From NCBI GenBank assembly GCA_035546535.1, contig DASZWQ010000167.1, positions 1 to 64,000 on the forward strand: DNA of 64,000 nt, in the 5' to 3' direction. Shown piece after piece: positions 1,535-16,898 of the stretch. This DNA comes from Pirellulales bacterium. Lineage in GTDB: Bacteria > Planctomycetota > Planctomycetia > Pirellulales > JACPPG01. Made by a program: the position numbers and the translations under genes. The notes beneath the pieces were generated by a model. That model saw only the letters and a program-made list of their open reading frames with translations. It was not told the origin of the DNA and searched no databases. Within the stretch, counting starts at the first letter, position 1; every line of letters begins with the position of its first letter.

Positions 1535-2506
1535 ATGACGCCTCTCTATCCTCTCCGCTTTCACCCGCTCTTGCGTCACTACATGTGGGGCGGCGAAAAG
1601 CTGCGCACCCTGCTGGGCAAATCATTCGATGATCACGCGACGTGCGCCGAGAGCTGGGAAATCTGTGATCGCGGGGCGGATCAAAGTGTCGTCGCAGCCG
1701 GGCCGCTGGCAGGCACGACGCTCGGCGAGCTCGTCATCACGCGCGGCGCCGAACTGCTGGGAAGGCACGCGCCACAGCCTCGATTTCCGCTCTTGTTCAA
1801 GTTTCTCGACGCCCGGTTGAAGCTGTCGGTGCAGGTGCATCCCGATGACGAACGGGCCAGCCAGCTAACGCCGCCCGACCTGGGCAAGACCGAAGCATGG
1901 GTCGTCATGGATGCCGAGCCCGACGGCCTGATCTACGCTGGCTTGAAGCGAGGGTTCGATCGCGCGGCACTCGCGCGCGAGATCGCCCGCGGCACTTGCG
2001 AGCTATGCCTGCACAGCTTTGTACCGCGCGCTGGCGACTGCATCTTTCTACCCGCGGGCGTCGTGCATGCGCTCGGCGGTGGCTTGCTCGTGGCCGAGAT
2101 TCAGCAATCGAGCGATACCACCTGGCGCCTGTTCGATTGGAATCGCCTCGGTCCGGATGGCCGGCCCCGCGCACTGCACATTGCCGAAGCGCTCGACGCG
2201 ATCGATTATGCGGCCGGCCCGGTATCACCTGTGCATCCGGCCGCCACGGAGAAGTCGGCGGTCGAGCGGCTCGTCGAATGCGATCCGTTCGTGCTCGATC
2301 GGTGGCGTTTGTCAGAACGGTACGAGCTACGTGACGATGATCGTTGCCATATTCTGGCGGTCGTCGAGGGCGCGGTTGAAGTCTCCGACGACGCCGCGCA
2401 GGTGCCACTAAAACTTGGCGAGACCATGTTACTGCCCGCCCGCCGCGCTGCGACTTCAATGATTCCAAGACCCAGCGCGATTGTTCTGGACGCCTTCTTG
2501 CCGTAG
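1535..2506 (+). CDS. manA: Mannose-6-phosphate isomerase, class I (short type)
   Basis: This enzyme interconverts mannose-6-phosphate and fructose-6-phosphate, linking glycolysis to GDP-mannose and glycan synthesis in the cytosol. The cupin-type zinc site is visible: QVHPDD at residues 100-105, the glutamate in GKTEAW at about 120, and the histidine in VVHALGGG at about 178. The active-site region DTTWRLFDWNR follows. Its length of 323 residues matches the short bacterial class I isomerases such as Bacillus ManA rather than the longer enterobacterial form. A C-terminal cupin-like portion is present. No clear ribosome binding site precedes the ATG, but the start gives the usual N-terminus (PLRFHPLLRHYMWGG). 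It stands alone, divergent from tatC. Confidence 0.93.
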   Translation: MTPLYPLRFHPLLRHYMWGGEKLRTLLGKSFDDHATCAESWEICDRGADQSVVAAGPLAGTTLGELVITRGAELLGRHAPQPRFPLLFKFLDARLKLSVQVHPDDERASQLTPPDLGKTEAWVVMDAEPDGLIYAGLKRGFDRAALAREIARGTCELCLHSFVPRAGDCIFLPAGVVHALGGGLLVAEIQQSSDTTWRLFDWNRLGPDGRPRALHIAEALDAIDYAAGPVSPVHPAATEKSAVERLVECDPFVLDRWRLSERYELRDDDRCHILAVVEGAVEVSDDAAQVPLKLGETMLLPARRAATSMIPRPSAIVLDAFLP

Positions 2507-2736
2507 TTTCCTCGCCGGCTGGATATACCGGTAAATCGCCGCGCCGCAACTTCAAGCCGCGCTCTGCGCAACGACGATGCTGACCTTAGACCAATGACTT
2601 TAGTCCGAGGCGACCGGATTTCGCTCGGGTAACAGCAGCACGAGCGTGGGGCGATACGGAAACGCTTGATTGCTTGCACAGGCAGGGCTCGTTGGCGCCA
2701 CGGTGGGCTCCCGACGGCGGAAGGGGGAAAACCTTG

Positions 2737-3276
2737 ATGCGTGGGAAATGCTTGACCGTGGCAGTGATTTTGATGATGGCGGTGGCCTTTGCGGCCGTGT
2801 GGGCAGGGGAAGCGCGGGCGGCTGGCGGCATCGCGCTGCCACGTCTCTTCAACCCTCCTCCACCGCGCGCCCAAGTGGCCGACGCGCAGGTGTGGGATCC
2901 TTACGTGCTTCCCGAGACAAGTGTTGGTCCGCCCGATCGCGCCGCCAACGTGCGGCCGCGCGATTTTCTGTATCCGCCTCCCGAGGCTACGCGAGTGCGC
3001 GTCTGGTACGGCGCACCGGGCACCTTCCCGCGGCCTCAACCACAGTTGCATTCGTGGGCGCCGGTGGACTATCCGAATATCAGGAAGCGGTTCATCTCCT
3101 CGCGACGCACCGCGCCGGCCGGCGTACCCGTCGAGCAAGGACCAGCGCTGGAAACACCGCCCGAGGGCGATGATTCCAAGACGAATGACGCCGAAGCCGT
3201 GCCGGCGCGGCCGGTCAAGCAGTCGGTGTTGCGTGCTCCTCGTCCACCTGGCGGGACAAACGCGCCGGACTTTTGA
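2737..3276 (+). CDS. Small secreted proline-rich protein of unknown function
   Basis: I do not recognise a family. The ATG at 2737 is preferred over one at 2674 because a purine-rich AGGGGG lies about ten bases upstream and because it puts a clean signal peptide at the N-terminus: MRGKCLT, a hydrophobic core, and a likely cleavage after AEARA. The mature part is rich in Pro and Arg, with short motifs such as WDPYVLP, RPRDFLYPPP and SWAPVDYP, and no membrane segment. The motif RPRDFLYPPP is nearly repeated as RPRDYLLPPP in the convergent lipoprotein gene at 3396-3683, so the two proteins may be related. Function is unknown; export is inferred. Confidence 0.7.
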   Translation: MRGKCLTVAVILMMAVAFAAVWAGEARAAGGIALPRLFNPPPPRAQVADAQVWDPYVLPETSVGPPDRAANVRPRDFLYPPPEATRVRVWYGAPGTFPRPQPQLHSWAPVDYPNIRKRFISSRRTAPAGVPVEQGPALETPPEGDDSKTNDAEAVPARPVKQSVLRAPRPPGGTNAPDF

Positions 3277-3395: not shown

Positions 3396-3683
3396 CTACG
3401 GTCCGCTCGCCTGCCAGCGATCGGGTGTGTATCCGGCGCCGGTCTTGATATCGATCGAGCGGATGGTCGGATCCGTTTGCGGCGGCGGTAATAGGTAATC
3501 GCGTGGCCGGGCGCTGCCGTCGTCGTGTGCCGTATACGGATCGGGATAGGGATCGAAGCGCTGGGCGCGCGTGCGCTGTTGACGCGCGGTACCGGGCGCG
3601 AACCAATCGGGGCCGGCGACATCGGAGCAGCCTACGGCCGTGGCCAGCGCTAGCGCAATCAGGGCGGCGGCGATGCGTCGCAA
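3396..3683 (-). CDS. Small lipoprotein with RPRDYLLPPP motif
   Basis: This 95-residue protein starts with a lipoprotein signal: MRRIAAALIALALATAVGC, with the lipobox cysteine at residue 19, so it is probably lipid-anchored at the cell envelope. The remainder is hydrophilic and Pro/Asp/Arg-rich (FDPYPDPYTAHDD, RPRDYLLPPP, GYTPDRW). The RPRD-aromatic/Leu-L-x-PPP motif is shared with the convergent secreted protein at 2737-3276, which suggests a small local paralogous family. No function can be assigned. The coding call rests on the clean signal peptide and the shared motif. Confidence 0.68.
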   Translation of the reverse strand: MRRIAAALIALALATAVGCSDVAGPDWFAPGTARQQRTRAQRFDPYPDPYTAHDDGSARPRDYLLPPPQTDPTIRSIDIKTGAGYTPDRWQASGP

Positions 3684-11383: not shown

Positions 11384-12595
11384 CTAATTCACGCGGGCCG
11401 GCTCAACCGGATCGTGGGGCGTCACGGCAGGCCGTTGGATCGGCCGTTCGGTGGGGACGCGTTCCTCGATTGCCGCGTCGCCAAAGTCATACATGCGGAA
11501 CGTCTTGCTGCGGTGCAAACCGGCTTTACGCATCCCGCCGATGGCCAGCGTGTTGGTTTCCGAAATCCAGGAGAATTCCGCCTCGGCAAAACCAAGCTCC
11601 AAGGTCTTGGGCAAAAGTGATCGCAGCAGCACCAGCCCTAGCCCCCAACGCTGATATTCAGGCGCCACGGCCATCGCCAAGACGCAGAATCGCTTCAGGC
11701 CACGGCGCGACAGCAATCGCAAGAAGCCAAAGGGCCAGAGCCGGCCGTCGATCTGGCGGATGCGCGGGTTGTAATCAGGCACCCCGATCACGGCTCCCGC
11801 CAGTTTACCCTCGACCTCGGCCAACAGCGCGAACTGTGGCTCGATCAGGTGCCGTAACGAACTCATCAGGTACTCGAGCTCGGCACGCGCAAGCGGAACA
11901 AAGCCCCACATGCCTTCGAGCGACCGATTGAACAGTTCCAGAAACCGATCGACGTCGCGGCTGCTGCGCGAGGTGTCAAGCGGCCGAATCACGGGTTGCC
12001 AGCGTTCTTGGATTTGATCGGTCAGCGGGTCAAGTCGTCGTTGGAAATCCGGCAGCTCATCGCGGTAACCGAGGAAGGCGAACATGTCATGAGCCTTCCG
12101 GAAGCCGTAATCCGTAAGCAAGCGCGGGTAATAGGACGGATTATACGGCAGCGAAAATGTCGGCGGGCTATCGAAGCCGTCGACCAGCATACCGCTCACG
12201 TAATTCATCGAAGGATTTACTGGACCACGCAGACCGTACGCGTCGTGCTCTTCGAGCCATTCGCGCGCGGCGTCGAACAAGGCACGCGAGACCTGGCAAT
12301 CGTCGACGGCCTCGAAAAAACCAAAGAAGCCGCGGCGCTCGTGAAATTCGTGATCGTGCGCATGATTGATGATCGCGGCAATCTGACCAACGACTTCCCG
12401 GCCGCGCCAGGCGAGGAACGTTTGAATCTCGCCGACGTGCCGAAAGGGGTGCGGGCGATAGCCCAACAAAGGGGCCTGCGACGATCGCAGCGGAGGAACC
12501 CAGTTCGGGTCGTTGCGATAGAGCGACCACGGAAAACGCATGAACCTGCGCCGGTCGAGCCACGACGTAACAGGCTGAATGCGAAGGATCGACAT
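11384..12595 (-). CDS. GNAT-fold N-acetyltransferase-like protein (YghO type)
   Basis: A protein of about 400 residues, possibly starting at 12631 instead. The shorter start is preferred because family members usually begin just before the block RFMRFPWSLYRNDPNWVPPL. The C-terminal half carries a GNAT acetyltransferase fold, with FCVLAMAVAPEYQRWGLGLVLLRSLL as the acetyl-CoA-binding motif A region and SWISETNTLAIGGMRKAGLHRSKTFRMY as the conserved end. The N-terminal part (FLAWRGREVVGQIAAIIN, NPSMNYVSGMLVDGFDSPP) is typical of large uncharacterised GNAT proteins related to YghO. The substrate is unknown. No good ribosome binding site is visible at either start. Confidence 0.8.
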   Translation of the reverse strand: MSILRIQPVTSWLDRRRFMRFPWSLYRNDPNWVPPLRSSQAPLLGYRPHPFRHVGEIQTFLAWRGREVVGQIAAIINHAHDHEFHERRGFFGFFEAVDDCQVSRALFDAAREWLEEHDAYGLRGPVNPSMNYVSGMLVDGFDSPPTFSLPYNPSYYPRLLTDYGFRKAHDMFAFLGYRDELPDFQRRLDPLTDQIQERWQPVIRPLDTSRSSRDVDRFLELFNRSLEGMWGFVPLARAELEYLMSSLRHLIEPQFALLAEVEGKLAGAVIGVPDYNPRIRQIDGRLWPFGFLRLLSRRGLKRFCVLAMAVAPEYQRWGLGLVLLRSLLPKTLELGFAEAEFSWISETNTLAIGGMRKAGLHRSKTFRMYDFGDAAIEERVPTERPIQRPAVTPHDPVEPARVN

Positions 12596-12941
12596 AAAGG
12601 GCCGGCAGGAGGAAGGGGCCGCAATCTCCATGTTAAGCTGGCAAACGGTGCGCCGGCAGTAAAAAATGCGGCTCTCGCGCCATCAAGTTGGATCGTGGGA
12701 GGGCAGGCCGATTCGACGACAGACGGCGCCTCGCACTTTTTCTTACGAGCCGCCGGTTTCGAGAGGTCGGTTTCCAGCCCGGCCAGGCGGTCGCCTGTCG
12801 CAAAAGTCAGCAATGGGCGGACAGGGCTCGATTTCCTAATGGCCGCAGCGGCTGCGTGGGTCGAACCCACGGCCCGTCTGGGAAGAGCGAAGAGCGCGCG
12901 GCCGGTAAAGCGGTGGCCCAGCCTGCAACCGCGTGGCTGCC
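12596..12941. other. Intergenic stretch, nothing recognised
   Basis: About 345 bp lie between the start of the GNAT gene and the end of the cinA-like gene, both on the minus strand. Short frames on either strand have no signal, motif or ribosome binding site. It presumably contains the GNAT promoter, which I could not locate. Confidence 0.5.
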
Positions 12942-14198
12942 TCAGCGAATATTCAGCAGCGTCAGACGGACCAGATTCAGAGCCTGTTTCGCCGCGCGGG
13001 CTTTCAGGATGTCGGGGCTGCCAAAGTGCGGCACCGAGCGCGTCGTTACCTCGTCCGCTGCAGCCAACGCCAGGAATAAACGCTGCGGCGTCTGCTGCTT
13101 GGTGATCGCCGCGGGAAACTGGCTGACAGCCAGCGCCAGATCGGCTCCCGATTGTTCCCGGCAGCCACGGGCCATGGCTTCGACCACCTCCGCGCTAACC
13201 GGGGTATGTGTGGCGATCAGCGCGGGCTCGACATCTAGCAAGCGAACGAGCGATGTCTGGTTGGGAACGACCAGACCGCCCAGATAATTATCTTCCTCGT
13301 TCTTGCCCGCATCATGCAGGCGGTCGGCCAATAGCCCGCCCGTTCCCCATTCGGCTGTGGCCAGAGTCAGACCGTGCTGACGCAATAGTCGAAGAACGGC
13401 ATCCTCGAGTTCGTCGTCCTCTTCTCCGAATACGACGTCCCCCAAGCACTCGTAAATCGTGGCCACGGTGGGTTCAGCCAGTGCGCGACATTCTTCGTCG
13501 CTGGCCCCCTGGGTGGTGATGCGCAGGGTGATCGTGGCTGCGCTGACCGTGATACCGACGCTGGGAACGCGGCCCCGGCGAATCAAGTCGGGCAGGCGCC
13601 CTTCCAGCTCGCTTTCGCTGAGGCCAAAGCACTTGATGCGGCGATGGCGAATCACCTGCGGCGCGCCGCAGATGCGCACCAGCTCGGGCCGCACTGTTTC
13701 GTCCCACATGCGGAACATTTCCGATGGCACCCCAGGGAGCGCGTACACCCGACAAGGTGCGCGCCCCTCGCGGGCAATCTCCTGGGCAATGCCTGGCGCG
13801 GTACCGGTTGGATTCGGAATGATGCGGCTGCCGCGCGGAAACAGCGCCTGGACTTTGTTCTTCTCGGGCATGTCGCGCCCGAAGCGAGCGAAGAGAGCGC
13901 GAATCTGCTCGACAATCTCGTCGTGCATTTCCAGCTCGACGCCGGCCAGCTGCGCCAGGACCTCGCGCGTCAGGTCGTCGGCGGTGGGCCCCAAGCCGCC
14001 GGTGGCAATGACCACATCGGCTCGCTCGCTGGCAGCGCGGAAGACATTGACGTTGGCCGCCAGATCGTCAGCAACGGTGGTGTGGTAAAGTACCCGGATG
14101 CCGATTTCGCCCAGTCGCTCGCTCAACCATTGGCTATTGGTATCGAGACGCTGCCCGCTGGTCAGCTCGTCGCCAATGGAGATGATTTCGGCATCCAT
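12942..14198 (-). CDS. cinA: CinA-family protein with degenerate nicotinamide-nucleotide amidase domain
   Basis: CinA proteins combine an N-terminal MoCF/COG1058 pyrophosphatase-like domain with a C-terminal NMN amidase (PncC-like) domain, used in pyridine nucleotide recycling. The N-terminal domain is well preserved (IISIGDELTSGQRLDTNSQWL, ATGGLGPTADDLTREVLA, ALPGVPSEMFRMW). In the C-terminal domain the expected catalytic motif TAESCTGGLLA reads TAEWGTGGLLA, so the nucleophilic serine is missing. The normally conserved YSNxxK segment reads VPNQTSL, losing Tyr and Lys too. The length of 418 is normal and the frame is intact, so this is loss of activity rather than decay. Nucleotide pyrophosphatase function may remain. 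Confidence 0.88.
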   Translation of the reverse strand: MDAEIISIGDELTSGQRLDTNSQWLSERLGEIGIRVLYHTTVADDLAANVNVFRAASERADVVIATGGLGPTADDLTREVLAQLAGVELEMHDEIVEQIRALFARFGRDMPEKNKVQALFPRGSRIIPNPTGTAPGIAQEIAREGRAPCRVYALPGVPSEMFRMWDETVRPELVRICGAPQVIRHRRIKCFGLSESELEGRLPDLIRRGRVPSVGITVSAATITLRITTQGASDEECRALAEPTVATIYECLGDVVFGEEDDELEDAVLRLLRQHGLTLATAEWGTGGLLADRLHDAGKNEEDNYLGGLVVPNQTSLVRLLDVEPALIATHTPVSAEVVEAMARGCREQSGADLALAVSQFPAAITKQQTPQRLFLALAAADEVTTRSVPHFGSPDILKARAAKQALNLVRLTLLNIR

Positions 14199-14438: not shown

Positions 14439-16898
14439 ATGGACAACGACAAGTCGACGATCGACGACCGCGATGAACCTCGGGCGACTCAGTCGCCAGA
14501 ATCCCCTGGCCAGGGAATGCCCTCGCTAACCGTTCTGCAAAGCGCGACCGGCGCGCAGGTGCGCGACCCCGTTTGTGGCATGACCGTCGATCCGGCCAAG
14601 ACGCCGCACAAGCATGCGCACGCCGACAAGACGTATTACTTTTGCTCGGCCGGCTGCGTGAGAAAATTCGCCGCCGACCCCGCGAAGTATCTTTCTGCCA
14701 ATCAATCGGCCATTGCGACACACGATCACGAGCACCACGCGGGTGAAGCGCATCATGCGAACCCGCACGCGCCGGCCAGCAAGGATGCCGAGTTCACCTG
14801 CCCGATGCATCCCGAAGTGCGGCAGATCGGGCCGGGCTCCTGCCCTATTTGCGGCATGGCTCTGGAACCAGTCGATATCACGGCTGCCGGGGAAGACCAT
14901 TCCGAATTGCGCGACATGCGGCGGCGGCTGTGGATCTCGGCCGCATTGACAATCCCACTGTTCGTGATCGCGATGTCCGAAATGATTCCCGGCGCGCCTC
15001 TGGCGCATCTGCTCAGTCCGCGCGTCTCGGCATGGGTGCAGCTCATTCTGGCGACGCCTGTCGTTACGTGGGGCGCCTGGCCCTTCTTCGTTCGCGGGTG
15101 GAATTCGCTGCTGACGCGCCAATTCAACATGTTCACGCTGATCTCGCTGGGTGTCGGCACGGCTTTTCTCGATAGCATCGTGGCCACGGTCGCGCCGGGC
15201 GTTTTTCCGGAATCCTTTCGCGGACACATGGGGGAAGTCGGCACGTACTTCGAGTCGGCCGCCGTGATCGTGACCCTGGTGTTATTCGGCCAGGTGCTTG
15301 AGCTGCGGGCCCGCAGTCAAACCTCCAGCGCAATCCGCAGCCTGCTTGGCCTGGCGCCGCGTACGGCGCGCAAGATCGACGGCAGTGGCGAGCATGACGT
15401 GCCGCTGGAAGAGGTGCAGCCAGGCGACCGGTTACGCGTAAGGCCGGGGGAGAAAGTGCCTGTCGATGGCGTGGTCGTGGAAGGGCATAGCAACGTCGAC
15501 GAATCGATGATCACGGGCGAACCCTTGCCGGTAGCGAAGGAAAACGGCTCGCCTGTCACCGGGGGAACAGTGAACGGCACCGGAACGCTCGTAATGCAGG
15601 CCCAACGCGTGGGGCGCGACACGCTCCTGGCGCAAATCGTGCAAATGGTCGGCGAGGCGCAGCGCAGTCGCGCGCCGATTCAACTGCTCGCCGATGTGGT
15701 CGCCAGCTATTTCGTGCCGGCCGTAATGCTCACGGCCGTGGCCACGTTCCTGGTTTGGGGCTGGTTAGGGCCCGAGCCACGGCTTGCCCATGCCCTGGTC
15801 AATGCGGTGGCAGTGCTAATTATTGCCTGTCCCTGTGCACTGGGGCTGGCCACGCCGATGTCGATCATGGTTGGCACGGGGCGAGGCGCGACGGCGGGAG
15901 TGCTCATCCGCAATGCCGAGGCGCTCGAGCGATTGGAAAAGGTCGACACGTTGGTCATCGATAAAACCGGGACGCTCACCGAGGGGAAACCGCGCGTCGT
16001 AAGCATTATCGCCGCCGAGGGTTTTGCCGAGGACGAAGTATTACGCCTCGCCGCGGACCTGGAATTGGCCAGCGAGCATCCGTTGGCAGCCGCCATCGTT
16101 GCTGCCGCGCGCGAGCGGGGCTGGTCGCCCGTCGCGGCTCTCAACTTCCAATCGACCACGGGACAGGGTGTGGCTGGATCGATCGACGGACGCAACGTGT
16201 TGCTCGGTAATCTGACGCTTCTGGAAAACGCGAGAATCGAAGCGGCGATGCTCGCCAAGCGTGCCGACGAATTGCGCCGGCAGGGGCAAACGGTCATGTT
16301 TCTGGCCGTCGACGGTCGCGCGGCAGGTTTGATCGGCGTCACCGATCCGATTAAACCGTCGTCGCGCGAGGCGGTCGACCTGCTCCGCGGCCAAGGCCTG
16401 CGGTTGGTAATGCTAACCGGTGATAGTCGTGCTACGGCCGCCGCGGTCGGCAGCCAATTGGGACTTGTAGATATCGAGGCCGAAGTGCGACCCGAGCAAA
16501 AGAACGCTGTCATTCGCCGGCTGCAGAATGCAGGAAGGATCGTCGCCATGGCGGGCGACGGGGTCAACGACGCCCCGGCGCTGGCCCAGGCCGATGTCGG
16601 CATTGCCATGGGCACGGGGACCGACGTGGCGATTCAGAGTGCTGGCGTAACCCTGGTGAAAGGCGATCTGCGCGGCATCGTGCGGGCACGTCGACTCAGC
16701 CATGCCACGATGCGCAATATTCGCCAGAATCTGTTCTTTGCCTTCATCTACAATGGGGTCGGCGTGCCGATTGCGGCCGGAATCCTCTATCCTGTGTCCG
16801 GATTACTCTTAAGCCCGATGATCGCCGCGGCCGCCATGAGCTTCAGTTCGGTATCGGTCATCGCCAACGCGCTACGGTTGCGTCGCGTGAAGTTGTGA
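14439..16898 (+). CDS. copA: Copper-type P1B heavy-metal-translocating ATPase with YHS and HMBD N-terminus
   Basis: This membrane pump exports monovalent metal (Cu+ or Ag+) using ATP. The N-terminus lacks the common HMA domain. Instead it has a YHS domain at about residues 45-90 ([28 protein letters not shown]) and a heavy-metal-binding domain at about 120-150 ([26 protein letters not shown]). A His-rich linker lies between. The P-ATPase core follows, with eight membrane segments, the TGEPLPV actuator motif, the Cu-type CPC motif in [12 protein letters not shown], the phosphorylation site [10 protein letters not shown], an HP motif in SEHPLAAAI and [10 protein letters not shown]. Length is 819 residues. 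A methyltransferase gene follows after 33 bases. Metal specificity is inferred from CPC. Confidence 0.94.

Follow-up and report, generated by a model that had tools for sequence, protein, structure and literature searches.

In Agrobacterium tumefaciens CinA (AtCinA; PDB 2a9s), a stand-alone PncC protein, Ser31 and Lys63 have been described as the catalytic dyad and Tyr58 and Arg145 as the residues that hold the phosphate of NMN, and each of the single mutants S31A, K63A, Y58A and R145A had undetectable activity (PMC5384747). Further contacts to NMN come from the backbone of G46, S48, A108 and G109 (PMC5384747; PMC4246079), and in 2A9S the PncC domain is reported to form dimers across an extensive interface. 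The three-domain CinA of Thermus thermophilus (TtCinA; PDB 4ct8, 4uux and 4uoc) is bifunctional, with Mg and ADP-ribose residues in its COG1058 and KH domains, an amidase pocket that includes Lys301, Tyr296 and Arg377, and a KH domain that closes off the partner chain's pyrophosphatase site (PMC4246079). Drug tolerance in Mycobacterium tuberculosis is not restored by CinA with the pyrophosphatase mutation D80A, whereas the deamidase mutant K323A does not show this failure (PMC9033802), which may be read as a precedent for the two halves working apart. E. coli YfaY (lineage 2.2.1.2) is described as an inactive two-domain CinA in which most PncC blocks are gone and the Ser has become Ala, in an organism with a separate active PncC (YgaD), and the first branch in the same report holds four inactive two-domain enzymes, not named there, which could include planctomycetes (PMC3855486).

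Here we analyse a CinA from a Pirellulales bacterium, encoded in a stretch of 64,000 nucleotides that is called the window throughout, together with its counterparts in related genomes.

An intact CinA frame with a degenerate PncC domain

The initial annotation had described a cinA gene with an intact frame and an intact N-terminal domain, and this description holds: the frame is open from start to stop, and the metal and ADP-ribose residues E11, D19, D44, D75, E160 and E195, identified by their alignment columns, are all kept (Table 1). The protein scores 299.6 bits against TIGR00200, the two-domain CinA family (cut-off 243.15), and 62.9 bits against the NCBIfam PncC_domain model TIGR00199, under its cut-off of 68.9. 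Like TtCinA, it has three domains with the Mg and ADP-ribose residues in the COG1058 and KH domains; where bifunctional TtCinA has Lys301, Tyr296 and Arg377, it has Leu, Pro and Pro (PMC4246079). It resembles YfaY in that a COG1058 domain is fused to a PncC domain without active-site residues. Unlike YfaY as described in PMC3855486, however, it retains a strong fold signal (81.6 bits against PF02464) and has Trp in place of the Ser, and its score against the YfaY model NF002978 is 171.6 bits, under the cut-off of 496. The genomic settings differ as well, since E. coli has YgaD whereas the window genome has no ordinary PncC and carries a PncC/adenylyltransferase fusion instead.

Table 1 Features of the window and the PCN gene of the same genome.
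Feature	Position	Strand	Evidence
cinA, 418 aa, three-domain CinA	12942..14198	-	open frame ATG to stop; Pfam and NCBIfam matches
N-terminal COG1058 / MoCF_biosynth domain, residues 4-173, ADP-ribose pyrophosphatase type	13680..14189	-	PF00994 E 7.5e-39, 133 bits
CinA KH domain, residues 185-258, invariant Glu E195 present	13425..13646	-	PF18146 E 2.9e-18, 66.1 bits, over cut-off
Degenerate PncC / NMN amidase domain, residues 262-413	12960..13415	-	PF02464 E 5.9e-23, 81.6 bits, over cut-off
W284 codon, replaces catalytic Ser31 (AtCinA numbering)	13347..13349	-	site alignment
P312 codon, replaces substrate-binding Tyr58	13263..13265	-	site alignment
L317 codon, replaces catalytic Lys63	13248..13250	-	site alignment
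P395 codon, replaces phosphate-binding Arg145	13014..13016	-	site alignment
GNAT-family protein, cinA neighbour	11384-12631	-	
P-type ATPase with YHS and heavy-metal-binding domains, cinA neighbour	14439-16898	+	
PCN (L150; name coined here), PncC-fold :: NMN/NaMN-adenylyltransferase-fold fusion, ~407 aa	own genome G000:C131:5052-6272		PF02464 E 0.0017

As in the window, a metal P-type ATPase gene adjoins cinA in the flanks of L003-L005, L009, L010, L013, L019 and L021 (8 of 29 loci tested, flanks of ~1.5 kb), so that the pair occurs in the genus and in several order genera farther away. A tRNA search of the 64-kb window returned none.

Loss of the NMN amidase site

At the altered motifs the CinA translation includes LATAEWGTGGLL and GGLVVPNQTSLVRLL. 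In an alignment that set it beside 27 CinAs of other classes and 4 of sister families, 13 of 17 known PncC site residues proved to be changed (reference ESCTGGSYKMTGAGPGR, window EWGTGKEPLMSQPAAQP). The absence of Ser, Tyr and Lys claimed by the initial annotation is confirmed, with W284, P312 and L317 at their places, and the loss runs deeper than thought, as a proline (P395) also occupies the place of the phosphate-binding Arg. Replaced in addition are C32, G46, S48, T105, G106, A108, G109, P110 and G120 (AtCinA numbering), and only E30, T33, G35 and M88 are kept, as E283, T286, G288 and M342 of the window protein. An alignment with relatives had been suggested as a check; it bears out the missing catalytic serine, and a search of the CinA alignment for a shifted Ser/Lys pair in the window protein found none.

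The C-terminal domain belongs to the same fold family as AtCinA, which has both the Ser31/Lys63 dyad and the phosphate-binding residues, whereas window CinA lacks the dyad and, with it, phosphate-binding Tyr58 and Arg145. The earlier statement that Ser, Tyr and Lys are needed for amidase activity agrees with the undetectable activity of the AtCinA mutants S31A, Y58A and K63A in PMC5384747, to which R145A adds the Arg site, and the reading of the domain as a pseudoenzyme is accordingly well supported by comparison of the residues. The suggestion that it binds NMN only finds no support: along with the phosphate contacts G46, S48, Y58 and R145, the ribose contacts A108 and G109 have disappeared too (K299, E302, P362 and A363 stand at the backbone-contact positions G46, S48, A108 and G109), so that NMN binding is unlikely, and a structural, dimer-forming role appears likelier.

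Distribution of the site loss

The altered site had been presented as a feature of one gene and turned out to be general to the order. A match to window CinA was found in 54 of the 57 genomes searched (its own and 56 relatives), and S-Y-K-R is kept in none of 57 CinAs of the order, 51 of which came from this search and 6 from a sample of the phylum; one row (L020) ends at a contig edge past the K63 site, and six order genomes in which no full CinA could be used (G006, G029, G031, G034, G039 and G056) lie outside the 57. The four residues are likewise kept in 0 of 21 CinAs of another family of the class, f21, for which 21 of 32 genomes were looked at. They are kept in all 31 outgroup CinAs, namely 27 of 27 from other classes, a set that leans towards intact proteins as it was drawn from the 30 best-scoring phylum-sample matches, and 4 of 4 from families f22 and f23, which may be Gemmataceae/Isosphaeraceae-like. 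Three of those 30 matches were filtered out, L068 (169-aa frame) and L077 (300-aa frame) for length and L075 because it belongs to f22. The CinA alignment leaves out L001 and L002, which are the window itself, L030, whose genome is also that of L113, and a pair of other-class CinAs fetched by the PCN search described below (L177 and L179), which were dropped by mistake as duplicates. CinA is also intact in the named Zavarzinella and Isosphaeraceae genomes, the analogy behind the tentative placing of f22 and f23, and PF02464 matches occur in 236 of 242 phylum-sample genomes outside the class and 288 of 294 overall.

In one genome from another class of the phylum (G060), CinA (L254) keeps Tyr, Lys and Arg while its catalytic Ser has given way to Gly; PCN is also present there.

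A PncC-fold/adenylyltransferase-fold fusion

The search for a separate PncC gene that the initial annotation had recommended was run on the 210-contig draft genome and gave a mixed outcome, in that no ordinary PncC rose above the cut-off while a sub-threshold match proved to be a fusion protein, for which we coin the name PCN. At E 0.001 there was no PF02464 match besides cinA, and up to E 1 only PCN (E 0.0017) and one chance-like match (E 0.4) appeared, on which grounds a hidden stand-alone PncC in this genome was rejected.

Residues 12-159 of PCN weakly match PncC and residues 233-399 weakly match nucleotidyltransferases, and Pfam and NCBIfam scans gave the protein no name. A predicted model of its relative L214, built on an alignment of 18 named relatives, reached pLDDT 93.1; in this model residues 1-161 adopt a PncC fold (2a9s_B, Z 17.2, rmsd 2.4, 149 aligned) and residues 203-369 a NaMN/NMN adenylyltransferase fold (3e27_B, Z 12.9). 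A profile of the PCN N domain matched the intact PncC profile with probability 94.9 over 142 columns. Compared with window CinA, PCN has a divergent PncC-fold domain that keeps G46 (50/50 rows), S48 (49/50) and Y58 (50/50), and it carries a NadD/NMNAT-fold domain and no COG1058 domain. The Ser31 place holds Thr or Ser in 44 of the 50 rows and Ala in 6, while Lys63 is kept in none, with L, M, F or Q instead; the rows combine alignments A1 and A2, which share one genome (G344, Thermogutta, is G045), so that its PCN is counted twice. With such residues at the two places, deamidase activity of PCN is doubtful by the dyad criterion, and the protein may act on NMN in another way.

In the adenylyltransferase half the HxxH and SSTxxR motifs are invariant in A1 (H242, H245, S395, S396 and R400), and the score against TIGR00482 is 14.9 bits, under the cut-off of 112.45. 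A canonical NadD was found in 51 of 51 genomes tested, 50 of them over the cut-off; this rules out PCN as a substitute for a missing NadD and means that its adenylyltransferase part fills no obvious gap. Conserved neighbours of PCN were mostly antisense shadow frames and gave no useful signal. PCN (loci L150-L167 and L180-L209) is conserved in nearly the whole order and occurs further afield, among others in SAR86, Woeseia, Chloroflexi, Rokubacteria and Latescibacteria, and At2g01220 is presumably a plant relative. Our literature search returned no functional paper on PCN or on At2g01220-type proteins, and nothing on PCN in titles or the beginnings of abstracts.

Distribution of PCN and stand-alone PncC

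Across 95 genomes of the order and f21, PCN and stand-alone PncC exclude each other almost perfectly: 54 have PCN only, 38 PncC only, none both and one neither, and two are cut by contig ends. The 63 order genomes comprise 52 with the PCN N domain, 8 with a stand-alone PncC, none with both, one with neither (G020) and two contig-cut (G039 and G041), while in f21 stand-alone PncC prevails (30 of 32 genomes, the other two, G319 and G323, having PCN, with none showing both or neither). S, Y and K are present in each of the 38 stand-alone PncCs; in this scoring and in that of the genomes outside the phylum, sites close to the domain ends (R145) and the rows L104, L266 and L268 were misaligned, so that L104 was read from the CinA site alignment and L266 and L268 were assigned by bit score. 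Fisher's exact test gave p values, inflated by relatedness, of 3e-9 for the order and 2e-25 for the order plus f21. On a tree of the N and KH domains of non-enterobacterial CinAs, the PCN/PncC labels need 7 changes of state. Well-supported branches give 3 independent pairs and all branches together 7, which are nearly always opposite, with a sign test p of 0.25 for the 3.

Some PncC-bearing genomes, e.g., G006, G015 and G228, keep only the adenylyltransferase part, and in the f21 genome G220 the PCN N domain is a remnant. In L237 an intact pncC (2432-3100) overlaps the start of a PCN-type adenylyltransferase gene on the same strand, the unfused form of the PCN pair; in G228 pncC and the adenylyltransferase gene are adjacent and divergent. 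Two Chloroflexi loci show divided halves of PCN: in L232 (~3552) a single stop codon parts two neighbouring halves that share a reading frame, and in L242 (~3502-3528) the halves overlap in different frames.

Outside the class, a full PCN was found in 2 of 242 phylum-sample genomes. One is G060, with the Ser31-to-Gly CinA described above, and the other is G082, where a search at E 0.001 gave no match for CinA; five other genomes lack both proteins. The exclusion is weaker outside the phylum, where 15 genomes with the PCN N domain, non-planctomycete by record title, divide into 10 with no intact PncC, 4 with one (the genomes of L218, L223, L234 and L235) and 1 with a Lys-to-Arg form (L232). Two of these, a betaproteobacterial MAG (G345, L218) and a Rokubacteria MAG (G350, L223), contain at least three different PncC-type genes each, including low-scoring, planctomycete-like fused CinAs, and are possibly mixed assemblies; both are still counted as exceptions.

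Constraint on the PncC domain and alternative explanations

Throughout nearly all order CinAs the N-domain and KH invariants (E11, D19, D44, D75, E160, E195 and nearby glycines) are kept, and they match the Mg/ADP-ribose ligands reported for TtCinA (PMC4246079). Mean pairwise identity is 0.60 (N), 0.61 (KH) and 0.35 (C) among order CinAs versus 0.41, 0.29 and 0.49 in the intact CinA set, so that the C domain, the best conserved part of the protein in the intact set, has become the least conserved one in the order. One could read the low value for C against that for N as the mark of a neutral leftover heading for loss, an explanation we think unlikely. Among congeners the dN/dS of the C domain is 0.09-0.20 (roughly 0.1-0.2) in 9 of 10 pairs, the tenth not being computable, and that of the N domain within the genus 0.06-0.14, both rough values with dS near saturation. 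E283, G288, A343, K404 and R411 are conserved in 95-98% of order C domains, and the residues that remain conserved, judged from the alignment, are mostly core and last-helix positions. The low dN/dS and these conserved positions indicate that the C domain is not decaying freely.

The domain is also retained in all 57 aligned order CinAs, with new conserved features (a G393-H-P395 loop at the place of the phosphate Arg, W293, and K404 in 95%) that could line a changed pocket, as would suit a pseudoenzyme with lasting NMN or NaMN binding that regulates the pyrophosphatase, the role that the initial annotation had considered. This ligand-sensing reading is improbable in the face of a pocket whose NMN residues vary widely even within the order: R145 has become Pro in ~77% of order CinAs, none retains Y58, and most have lost G46, S48, A108 and G109. 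The same new residues, together with a His at position 394 in 75% of order CinAs, might instead belong to an amidase whose catalytic residues have relocated, but position 394 is Ser in the window, the substrate-binding residues were lost together with the catalytic ones, and nearly every genome has another PncC-fold protein, all of which makes a relocated site very unlikely. As for a sequencing or assembly error, which a draft in 210 contigs might invite, its probability is next to nil, since the same loss recurs in 52 other order genomes and in four congeners, whose separate assemblies share an identical EWGTGG motif, so that neither sequencing error nor chance can account for it.

A candidate division of labour between CinA and PCN

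We consider it likely that CinA in this order is now a single-activity protein whose C domain serves as a scaffold, and that the NMN task has moved to PCN or to a stand-alone PncC. This reading starts from what the computation gave directly, namely the site loss and its spread, the conservation of the N domain, the presence of PCN and the near-perfect exclusion of PCN and PncC. The COG1058 domain, to judge from its conserved residues, would still cleave ADP-ribose, with the KH domain of the partner chain closing over its pyrophosphatase site. The PncC domain, deprived of the Ser/Lys dyad and the NMN pocket, would be a dimer scaffold that joins two chains and thereby lets each KH domain reach the pyrophosphatase site of the opposite chain. 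Because the predicted model of window CinA folded alone had a pLDDT of 35.3 and was set aside, this scaffold role is argued from TtCinA and from conservation.

NAD-dependent DNA ligase releases NMN, and its presence in the window's own genome means that NMN has to be handled there. In that genome PCN would probably process it, and in some relatives the stand-alone PncC would do so; a search of the own genome for the NAPRTase family returned one weak member (30.2 bits). More tentatively, and at somewhat less than even probability in our judgement, PCN may be an NMN-recycling enzyme with a dyad-less pocket that has replaced PncC in Pirellulales and occurs also in SAR86, Woeseia, Chloroflexi and other bacteria. 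Such an enzyme would take up NMN and pass it to its own adenylyltransferase domain, yielding NAD directly or NaAD after deamidation, and its presence would have made the amidase half of CinA dispensable, leaving CinA as a pyrophosphatase whose scaffold is an inactive enzyme domain.

Two-domain CinAs that are inactive have been published before, YfaY among them, and by sequence comparison the planctomycete CinAs probably form a new lineage of this known kind. In a search mostly of literature open without subscription, we found neither a planctomycete lineage of inactive CinAs, nor the Ser-to-Trp form, nor a link to PCN; the same search yielded no paper joining CinA, Planctomycetes and nicotinamide mononucleotide, none on CinA fused with a nicotinamide-nucleotide adenylyltransferase, and none on the pyridine nucleotide cycle in Planctomycetes.

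CinA is commonly annotated as an NMN deamidase, and for its amidase half this label is probably wrong in the window's order and in another family of the class. That PCN and stand-alone PncC exclude each other suggests that several phyla share another, putative way of recycling NMN, and it provides an assay-ready hypothesis for PCN, a family without an assigned role in the libraries searched.
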